Shown here: in pieces, positions 16,185 through 57,132 of the stretch
Position numbering within the stretch: position 1 is the first letter of the stretch
Layout: each line of letters opens with the position of its first letter
From: Chitinivibrionales bacterium
GTDB taxonomy: Bacteria; Fibrobacterota; Chitinivibrionia; Chitinivibrionales; FEN-1185
Direction: 5' to 3'
Length of the DNA stretch: 64,000 bases
NCBI GenBank assembly: GCA_035516255.1
Contig: DATJAL010000045.1
Location: 1-64,000, forward strand
The notes under the pieces: generated by a model
The model's database searches: none
Seen by the model: only the letters and a program-made list of their open reading frames with translations
Told to the model about the DNA's origin: nothing
Position numbers and translations under genes: made by a program

Positions 16185-17759
16185 ATGACATTTTTCACGC
16201 ACAAAACCATGGTTATCATGGCAACGGGCGCAATGCTGGTCGCCGCGGTGTGGCCGGACCGGGCCGTAGCCGACACATGGACGCCCATGCCCGCGACCAC
16301 GTCGCTGGGCACGCGGGGGCTTTCGCAGACCGCGTCGGCGCGTGCGCTCGGCGCGGGACGCCTCAACATCACCCTGCAGGGCTCATGGTACCAGCAGAAG
16401 GATTTTTTCCCCGGCGCTCCCAATGCCAACGCGAACATCGTCACGGGCATCGGCGCCCTGGCTTTCGGCGTCAGCAACTACTTTGACGTTTTCGGCGGCG
16501 CGAATTTCTTCGACCTGTCAAAATATACCGTCTCTTCCACCAAGTCGGGATTGGGCACCATGGTGGGCGGCATGCAGGCGTCGCTGCCGCTGCCGCAGGG
16601 CGTTCCCATCTTTCTGGGAGCGCAGGCCATGGCGCTCGGCGGCGTTTCTAAAAACCAGATCAACACGAATTACGCTGACGGATACAACTACCTTGAGACG
16701 CGCGTCCACTGGGACATGCTGGGCAAGGTCATGGAATCGCTCATCCTCGGCAATGAAAGCCGCGGATTCGAGCTGCACCTCAACGAGGGCGCGGACAAGT
16801 CAACCGATCCTTCCACCGACCCGCTGTTGCTGCTCTCCGGCGGGGTGGTGGGACATTTAATTCCGTATTTGTCGCTGGCGGTCGAGGCCAATTCGCGCAC
16901 CTATCTCAAGAAACGTTCTTTTACCACGGATCCTGTATGGATCACGCCGTCTGTCCTCATCCGGACACCCGCCCTTCTCGCTTTTACCATCGGCTGCGAC
17001 ATTTCTGCCGCGCAGAAACGCAAGAACGATCCTGCCCCGCAGTCCCTGGAGCCGTTCCGCCTTTTCGGCAACATGATGTTATCGATCGACTGCCTTGAAG
17101 GACAACGCCGCGCCGTCGCGGAAAAAGCGAAGAACGATTCCATGGAGCACGCGCAGTGCCTTGCCGACGTCCAGCGCATCACCATGATGCGTGACAACAT
17201 AAGAAAAAAACAGCGGGCCGATTCACTTGAGTGCATACGGGTCGGCGACTCGCTCAAGGGCGCCAGCGACGCTTTGGTGCGCAGAATTCAGTCCGATTCC
17301 ATGGCGCTTGAGGCGGCAAAGGCCGAATACAACCGTCTGCTCGCGATCGAGAAGGACCGGCGGTCCGACATGGAGAAAAAGCTGCTTTCTACCGGCATGC
17401 TGATCCTCGACGCAGTCTATTTCGAATCCGGCAGGACCGAGATTTCCATGAATTCAAAGCCGTATCTCAAGATCATCGGCAAAATGCTGGAACGGTATCC
17501 CAAGCTGCAGCTCGAGGTTGGAGGCCATACCGACAACATGGGCAACGCGGCCAAGAACCAGCAGCTCAGCCAGCTGCGCGCCGAGGCGGTGCGCAATTAC
17601 CTGCTGATGGTTGCGCCGTCGATGTCCGAACGGCTTTCGGCAATGGGCTACGGACCGTCCCAGCCCAAGGCCGACAACCGGAGCGCGGCGGGAAGGAAGA
17701 TCAACCGGCGCGTGGAGATCAAGGTGTTGAATCCGGAGGTGCTGAAGGAATATAATTAA
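16185..17759 (+). CDS. OmpA-family outer membrane protein
   Basis: 524 residues, signal peptide (MVIMATGAMLVAAVWPDRAVA). Residues ~35-290 contain alternating amphipathic strands and glycine (LNITLQGSWYQQKDFF, GVSNYFDVFGGANFF, IFLGAQAMALGG), consistent with a beta-barrel. A coiled-coil linker (~300-400) follows, then an OmpA/MotB peptidoglycan-binding domain (~410-520: VYFESGRTEISMNSKPYL, VGGHTDNMGNAAKNQQLSQL, RAEAVRNYL, NRRVEIKVL). It would tether the outer membrane to the wall. Monocistronic: strong GGGAGG site and an intrinsic terminator at 17787-17826. Confidence 0.9.
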   Translation: MTFFTHKTMVIMATGAMLVAAVWPDRAVADTWTPMPATTSLGTRGLSQTASARALGAGRLNITLQGSWYQQKDFFPGAPNANANIVTGIGALAFGVSNYFDVFGGANFFDLSKYTVSSTKSGLGTMVGGMQASLPLPQGVPIFLGAQAMALGGVSKNQINTNYADGYNYLETRVHWDMLGKVMESLILGNESRGFELHLNEGADKSTDPSTDPLLLLSGGVVGHLIPYLSLAVEANSRTYLKKRSFTTDPVWITPSVLIRTPALLAFTIGCDISAAQKRKNDPAPQSLEPFRLFGNMMLSIDCLEGQRRAVAEKAKNDSMEHAQCLADVQRITMMRDNIRKKQRADSLECIRVGDSLKGASDALVRRIQSDSMALEAAKAEYNRLLAIEKDRRSDMEKKLLSTGMLILDAVYFESGRTEISMNSKPYLKIIGKMLERYPKLQLEVGGHTDNMGNAAKNQQLSQLRAEAVRNYLLMVAPSMSERLSAMGYGPSQPKADNRSAAGRKINRRVEIKVLNPEVLKEYN

Positions 17760-17786
17760 CAGGGTTGAGTGATTAAGGTGAAAATG

Positions 17787-17826
17787 AAACCGCGGTCGTC
17801 TAAATGATGATCGCGGTTTTTTTATT
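17787..17826 (+). terminator. Intrinsic terminator after the OmpA-family gene
   Basis: AAACCGCGGTC pairs with GATCGCGGTTT (one mismatch) and is followed by TTTTTT. Confidence 0.85.
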
Positions 17827-17859: not shown

Positions 17860-18020
17860 AATATAAAATCAAGATATGGAAGGGCCTCGCCGGCCCTTAG
17901 GCCCGGCAAGGAAAAGGCAAATGACATAATGGAGGTGCGAAGCACCACTACCTTGCCCTTTGGGAATAAAATGACAACATGCTTATTGTTGTCCGCCCTC
18001 CAAACCTCCCACGCCGGGGA
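17860..18020 (+). repeat. Conserved structured intergenic element R5, copy A
   Basis: The only close match is 50912-51080 in the same orientation; over the last 80 positions 72 are identical by eye. It contains three hairpins: AAGGGCC-TCGCC-GGCCCTT, GGTGC-GAA-GCACC and CTCCC..GCCGGGGA, joined by conserved single-stranded blocks (GCAAGGAAA, CAAATGACATAAT, ATGCTTATTGT, GTCCGCCCTCCAAACCTCCC). It lies 100 bp after the OmpA-family stop. It may be a small RNA, a 3'-end element or a miniature mobile element. Confidence 0.7.
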
Positions 18021-18282
18021 AGTTTCTTAGGTTTAAAGCCCTTTAGCCTCAAAAAACCGGGTTTTATTTTCTCTGCATCAACAATAATTTCTTATCAACC
18101 CACCATCGTCCTCCCGCATTCCTGCTTTTCATTTGAGAACCTGACGACAGAAGCATAAAATCCTGTCCACAAATTTATTCCGATTCTTTTTAAAAATAAT
18201 AATAACCAAATTCCAGCAAATGCACAACCAATCTTCTATCAGCAAGTTACATTTATACATCTTTTCAAGAAAAATTTAATAG

Positions 18283-50911: not shown

Positions 50912-51080
50912 AAATAAAATTCAAATTTAAGATATGATAGGGGCTCCGCCCCTAAAACCCCGCAAGGAAAGGGCAAATGACATAATAAAAGGTGCGAAGC
51001 ACCACCACTACTTCACCCTTTCGGAATAAAATGACAAAATGCTTATTGTAGTCCGCCCTCCAAACCTCCCCCGCCGGGGA
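50912..51080 (+). repeat. Conserved structured intergenic element R5, copy B
   Basis: Same orientation and layout as 17860-18020: hairpin AGGGGC-TCC-GCCCCT in place of AAGGGCC-...-GGCCCTT, the same GGTGC-GAA-GCACC hairpin, then ATGCTTATTGT, GTCCGCCCTCCAAACCTCCC and CCGCCGGGGA. It begins ~23 bp after the histidine-kinase stop. The remaining gap to proS (51081-51318) shows nothing recognisable. Confidence 0.7.
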
Positions 51081-51318
51081 GGCTACCGCCTGATCTTGTC
51101 ACTGCCTAGAATCATGGTTTTTAGTTTCCATTCAAAGAAGGGCTGTCTAGAAATCAATAGGATTATCTGGAGATTCAATACATCAAAAGTTGTTCCATTT
51201 TAATTTCCCTTTTATATCCCTTGATTTCTCCTCCTCCTCGCTCTTATTTTATTCAAGTTCTTTTTTACCCCCCAAACGTATTTAATATCACATAGGAAAG
51301 CCTTCAAGGCCAGCTTTC

Positions 51319-56821: not shown

Positions 56822-56887
56822 TCGGGGGCGTCGCCCCCGAACCCCCACCTACTTTTCTTCTGCAGCGAAGAAAAGTAGCCAAAGACG
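56822..56887. repeat. Hairpin repeat (family R7)
   Basis: CGGGGGCG-TCG-CGCCCCCG-like stem followed by CCCCC and the perfect inverted repeat CTACTTTTCTTC-TGCAGC-GAAGAAAAGTAG. The second hairpin type is common between genes of many bacteria. The rest of the 394-bp convergent gap (56771-57164) holds only the R6 repeat. Confidence 0.7.
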
Positions 56888-57085
56888 CCGCGCCTGCAGT
56901 GCCGTCTTGTCCCTCGGCAGTCGGGCGGCCCGTGAACTCACCCGTGCGAAAGAAAAAAGATTAGCGGGTTCGGACAGCACGAGCGGCTGATCCTCCTGCC
57001 CCAGGGGCGGCACTGATGGCGTTAGAAAAAAGACAATTGTGGTAATTGACTTATGCCGGCGTTAGGTGGACCGGAGGGTGCGCTA

Positions 57086-57132
57086 GAGCGCATTGCCGGC
57101 CGACCCCGCGAAGCGGGGAACGCCCGGATTTA
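57086..57132. repeat. Dispersed repeat family R6, short copy
   Basis: GAGCGCATTGCCGGCCGACC followed by the hairpin CCCCGCGAAGCGGGG and AACGCCCGGATTTATT. The longer copy at 60946-61063 has the same ends with ~85 bp inserted. It lies 33 bp before the end of the PfkB-like gene, in a convergent gap. Confidence 0.7.

Follow-up and report, generated by a model that had tools for sequence, protein, structure and literature searches.

A TGTC-tagged 65-nt hairpin, probably a mobile element, nested inside a second repeat in a Fibrobacterota genome

The conserved feature found at 17.9 and 50.9 kb of the window (the whole 64,000-nucleotide stretch of DNA analysed here) is two nested elements, a unit of about 65 nt lying inside an outer repeat. 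On account of its copy number, its empty sites, its insertions nested in other repeats and its insertions inside genes, we consider the inner unit to be a non-autonomous mobile DNA hairpin that moves without target duplication, and not a gene regulator (probability roughly 0.85). The unit has a covarying structure, is present in many copies and has precise empty sites. The source genome, a MAG assigned to the Fibrobacterota, comprises 61 contigs totalling 4.28 Mb, and it was compared with one congener (G001). Judging from the matching places of its units, G001 appears to be the genome of L033, the Fibrobacteres isolate fen_1185.

Results

The first-pass annotation had described one structured element of 165 bp in two copies. 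The sequence match was reproduced, with 72 of the last 80 positions identical without gaps (17941-18020 against 51001-51080); the best of 200,000 random pairs of 80-mers from the window matched at 40 positions. The hairpins it named are also present, the first as AAGGGCC..GGCCCTT at 17880 and TAGGGGC..GCCCCTA at 50938, the second (GGTGCGAAGCACC) at 17934 and at 50991. However, the feature is not a single element. Partial matches in a nucleotide search of the genome break off at fixed points, and copies of the outer sequence (L007, L008 and L029) have nothing between GCATTT and TCC; a unit of about 65 nt has been inserted in a repeat of about 110 bp (Table 1). The compensating change in the first hairpin was correctly read, and recurs in further copies (GGGGC/GCCCC, AGGGCC/GGCCCT, AAGGCC/GGCCTT and AAGGGC/GCCCTT), but it is a property of the outer repeat, whose own hairpin covaries. 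A position just after a stop codon applies to the 50.9 kb copy only, the 17.9 kb copy lying about 110 bp beyond a stop and downstream of a strong intrinsic terminator (17786-17820) that follows an OmpA-family gene (16185-17759). In variants of the outer repeat at L114, L116 and L161 the hairpin bears an additional GAGCTGCGCCAGCTCGCTC-type insertion.

Table 1. Positions of the inner unit, the arms of the outer repeat and unit-free host repeats in the window.
Feature	Position	Strand	Evidence
Inner unit, copy 1, reading TGTCATTTTATTCC-stem-GGTAGT-GGTGC/TTC/GCACC-...-stem	17913..17976	-	R1 model 78.5 bits, E 4e-17; alignment, covariation
Inner unit, copy 2	50969..51036	-	R1 model 77.5 bits, E 6.8e-17
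Outer repeat arm with AAGGGCC/GGCCCTT hairpin, copy 1	17870..17912	none	Unit-free copies L007, L008/L230, L029; congener L231, L237
Outer repeat arm with ATGCTTATTG..CCGCCCTCCAAACCTCCCACGCCGGGG, copy 1	17977..18023	none	Unit-free host copies
Outer repeat arm with TAGGGGC/GCCCCTA hairpin, copy 2	50927..50968	none	Unit-free host copies; hairpin variants
Outer repeat arm with CCCTCCAAACCTCCCCCGCCGGGGAGGC, copy 2	51037..51083	none	Unit-free host copies
Unit-free host repeat, other family, palindrome CTACTTTTCTTCTGCAGCGAAGAAAAGTAG	56823..56917	+	Joined-flank query, matched span 417-510, junction at 450
Unit-free host repeat, third family, GCGTTAGGTGGACCGGAGGG..GCGCAT^TGCCGGCC	57039..57125	+	Joined-flank search; filled relatives L129, L121, L124

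Read on the minus strand, the unit (62-68 nt here) has the form TGTCA(C/T)TTC(A/G)TTCC-nn-stem-AAGGTAGT-hairpin-CCATTATGTCATTTGCC-stem, in which an unpaired tag, TGTCA(C/T)T..TTC(C/T), leads into a bipartite stem-loop; the stem begins about 17 nt into the unit, and the typical loop is TTC. No position of the TGTCA start is conserved in fewer than 71 of the 76 distinct units, and the bases of TGTC (positions 1-4) are each kept in 71-74 of them. In the alignment of these 76 units, which was fitted to the structure and to that extent favours the pairing statistics, the two main helices make up 12 pairs; 91% of their cells are paired, and 11 of the pairs have changed on both sides. Double-changed cells numbered 153, as against 39.8 in shuffles, and slid controls gave 37-43% pairing. 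The stem appears as AAGGG/CCCTT, CTTGG/CCAAG, TGAGG/CCTCA or CTGGG/CCCGG, and the hairpin as GGTGC/GCACC, TGCGC/GCGCA or CAATGCC/GGCATTG; pairing is less strong in a third helix, the short GGTA/TRYC (82% paired). Because G-T wobbles exceed A-C cells on the minus strand (85 against 12, and 36 against 12 when the most skewed pair is left out), we take this to be the strand on which the inner unit folds. The earlier argument that kept pairing suggests selection on a structure stands as far as the pairing is concerned, which is real; the pairing is either selected or mechanically maintained.

A search with the R1 model, built from 17 copies of the unit, found 41 places in this genome (40 with E < 0.001), 50 copies in the congener and 1-8 copies in each of 17 other genomes from this order. 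Under stricter filters the same search found no unit outside the order in a sample of 151 Fibrobacterota genomes, nor was one found in 37 genomes of other phyla. Collections of viruses, plasmids and phages gave no match, the viral search being for one exact pattern. At four loci in G027 and G032 (L171, L173, L176 and L177) the contig ends at, or about 50 bp beyond, near-identical units, which suggests a recent multiplication that broke the assembly.

The joined flanks of eleven filled sites were searched in this genome and the congener. Matches spanning the junction were obtained many times over, in six families of host repeat; these comprise the outer repeat together with five or more unrelated ones. 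When filled and empty sites are aligned the unit is simply missing, mostly with no bases duplicated or lost, and the one or two Ts at its edges leave room for a duplication of a single base at most. The left flank ends with T in 64 of 76 units and the right flank starts with T in 69 of 76. Two of the families lie empty in the window and host the unit elsewhere: an interspersed palindrome (CTACTTTTCTT..AAGAAAAGTAG, at 56823-56917), whose left arm is occupied by the unit on contig C52 of the source genome (G000, L115), and the GCGTTAGGTGGACCGGAGGG..TGCCGGCC repeat at 57039-57125.

Palindromes serve as host sites in some cases, the unit interrupting them close to the centre or within one arm (L125, with 20-bp arms, L137, L170 and L180), and in five genomes (G000, G003, G021, G025 and G032) the unit occupies or adjoins an arm of related palindromes of the CTACTTTT...AAAAGTAG type. 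A palindromic-flank score of at least 11 was reached at 5 of 75 sites, compared with about 0.2% of mismatched flank pairs, the majority of unit flanks not being palindromic. Within the window the GC skew is not strong enough to show whether insertion is biased towards one replication strand.

Y2 transposase genes of the IS91 type contain the unit as well, at six points. In G012 (L148 and L165) the unit lies between HIPN and NGEH, between YSN and NSRG, and before FNPHVH; in G025 (L149) it separates HI from PGKGEH; and in the congener (L261) it is found between DLIH and WHSHIH and again in KCP..CGG, the latter with one extra base. The protein match of L261 to an intact Y2 transposase ends at the unit (1454) and restarts just past it (1526); two units disrupt the Y2 gene at this locus. 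The Y2 genes of L148 and L165 are riddled with various small inserts besides the unit, for example a stretch encoding PFGHPSAVLS.

All six gene-internal insertions being in Y2 genes, these transposases could themselves be what moves the unit, with its build-up in their genes as a consequence. Co-occurrence points the same way, units being present in 15 of 17 genomes with Y2 and in 4 of 23 without it (p 1.4e-5, and 0.007 in genomes of at least 3.5 Mb), although this comparison is confounded by the larger size of unit-bearing genomes (mean 4.9 versus 3.1 Mb) and by kinship among the genomes. Against a Y2 mover, no Y2 gene was detectable in this genome despite its 41 unit hits, and among 20 Y2 loci the intact ones carry no unit, ends included; units were seen only at L280, a broken gene with units inside it, and weakly at L282. 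A specific role of Y2 transposases is unlikely in our judgement, and at these 20 loci the unit does not have ends in common with an autonomous Y2 element.

Other possible sources of the moving enzyme were also examined. No significant unit lies within 1.5 kb of 31 Y1/RAYT (RAYT/IS200) loci, and a RAYT as owner was rejected, a different REP (CCCGACCTGAAGGTCGGG) flanking the RAYT of this genome and other REPs flanking the congener's. The RAYT-like gene of this genome (L031 1210-1809, G000:C16) is flanked by repeats of the GGCCCG-CACCTTCAGGT-CGGGCC type, a REP system distinct from the unit. In the congener a RAYT/IS200-like gene (L203 1150-2250, G001:C33) lies in an array of the short palindromes CCCGGGGC..GCCCCGGG, CCTTCAGGG and CCCCAACGGGG. 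Between the paired units of L189, L260 and L261 no plausible autonomous element was found.

Discussion

On the mobile-hairpin reading the unit would insert beside T, duplicating one base at most, and its targets would be IS91-type transposase genes and other repeats, some of them palindromic. In the window the unit would have come to lie inside two copies of the second repeat, and the composite would have spread as a repeat family. Movement might proceed through a single-stranded intermediate whose hairpin form a transposase acting in trans would recognise; this enzyme would be of the HUH type, either Y1 (IS200/RAYT-like) or Y2 (IS91-like). This step, which we infer from insertion without target duplication, a fold specific to one strand and palindromes among the targets, rests on analogy, since the Y1/RAYT loci examined and the ends of intact Y2 genes are free of units and this genome has no detectable Y2 gene, and we would put such candidate single-strand movement at a little short of an even chance. 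A further and rather doubtful proposal is that the unit represents a minimal class of mobile element: a hairpin of 65 nt, tagged with TGTC and lacking a coding relative, for which insertion into other repeats and IS91-type transposase genes is precise and duplication-free. It might use the single-stranded DNA exposed by the latter and be moved by machinery as yet undescribed.

Most copies of the unit lie within other repeats, and so the unit might be immobile in itself, a module of larger BIME-like mosaics that are reshuffled by recombination and gene conversion. Filled and empty host copies are indeed intermixed in a tree of the host repeats (a weakly supported tree, in which at most two forced changes can be counted), and units stand in tandem in L118, L128 and L134. 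However, the same precise ends recur in six unrelated host repeats and in transposase genes, without homology in the flanks, which makes a mosaic origin improbable.

The first-pass annotation had offered three readings, a regulatory RNA, a 3'-end element or a miniature mobile element, and of these the last is retained. A structured RNA, or an attenuator or stability element at 3' ends, serving the host would agree with the strong covariation, with G-U wobble on one strand and with the intergenic position of both copies in the window. Yet the copies track host repeats and not genes, units lie inside transposase genes, copy 1 stands behind a terminator, and the congener's HK-proS spacer, orthologous to the 50.9 kb site, is without the element. 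(For the 17.9 kb copy synteny is not usable, the best OmpA homologues of the congener having different neighbours.) As the annotation had noted, no named RNA family is recognisable: Rfam gave 0 matches in the window above the gathering threshold, and searches at the gathering threshold and at permissive ones gave no relevant hit, the sole sub-threshold one (in L153) being unrelated. We regard a regulatory role as very improbable. Very improbable, too, is an IS110/IS1111-type DEDD recombinase as mover, which would also account for palindromic targets and the missing target duplication, but the congener with its 50 copies has no IS110 match, there is no co-occurrence, and 12 IS110 loci are free of units.

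Mobility and compensating changes had been set against each other in the annotation; here both occur together. Nor is the missing target duplication an argument against mobility for a class of duplication-free hairpins. A more general caution is that compensatory stem changes in pairs of intergenic sequences do not on their own prove a regulatory RNA.

How REPs of the CGTC/TGTC type move without a dedicated transposase is a stated open question (PMC3733652). The present family adds a case supported by covariation within one order, in which filled and empty host repeats, and protein-coding genes among the hosts, can be set side by side. With such filled and empty pairs the ends, the target rule and the partner enzyme therefore become testable.

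Our literature searches found no earlier description of the unit, and it was compared with several known systems. Like a MITE it is small, non-coding, multi-copy and, on our reading, mobile; it was not assigned to the MITEs, having neither terminal inverted repeats (the TGTCA end is unpaired with the other end) nor target duplication. The complementary end boxes of an integron attC site (RYYYAAC and GTTRRRY) are absent, the unit ending in TGTCA and in CCCTT, CCTCA or CCAAG. It shares with non-autonomous elements of the IS200/IS605 type a hairpin end, here a covarying one, and the lack of target duplication, here seen in the empty sites. Insertion sequences that target REPs are reported to be coding IS elements that insert into palindromic repeats (PMC1525189); the unit resembles these in its palindromic-repeat targets and differs in being a non-coding hairpin of 65 nt.

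GTAG REP and REPIN repeats are mobilised by RAYTs (PMC3733652, PMC3116915). The unit is likewise a hairpin, and many copies in this genome have a GTAG-like foot (AAGGTAGT-hairpin), but in other genomes the foot is replaced by GTATTC, GAATTC, GAGTCC and others, so that it is not kept across the order. Moreover, units do not flank any of the 31 Y1/RAYT loci, and the two RAYTs inspected have other REPs. Membership of the GTAG REP/RAYT group was rejected on these grounds.

A close likeness is to the CGTC-tagged REPs, which include Neisseria dRS3 and Rickettsia RPE-4/RPE-6. These multi-copy repeats carry an unpaired terminal tag in which CGTC is often TGTC, have no known dedicated transposase, and in some cases insert in genes, with a family in H. 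neapolitanus lying inside palindromes (PMC3733652). The unit has a comparable unpaired TGTC tag at one end, is multi-copy without a known dedicated transposase, and is found in palindromes and genes. However, in CGTC REPs a stem of 8-9 bp, starting with A-T pairs, stands right behind the tag, together with a loop of 4-5 bases and a CCA tail (PMC3733652), whereas the unit has a longer unpaired linker after the tag, a bipartite stem starting about 17 nt in, typically a TTC loop and a total length of about 65 nt, and so falls outside that definition. We therefore file the unit as a REP-like, duplication-free mobile hairpin of different anatomy, belonging to neither the CGTC nor the GTAG superfamily.
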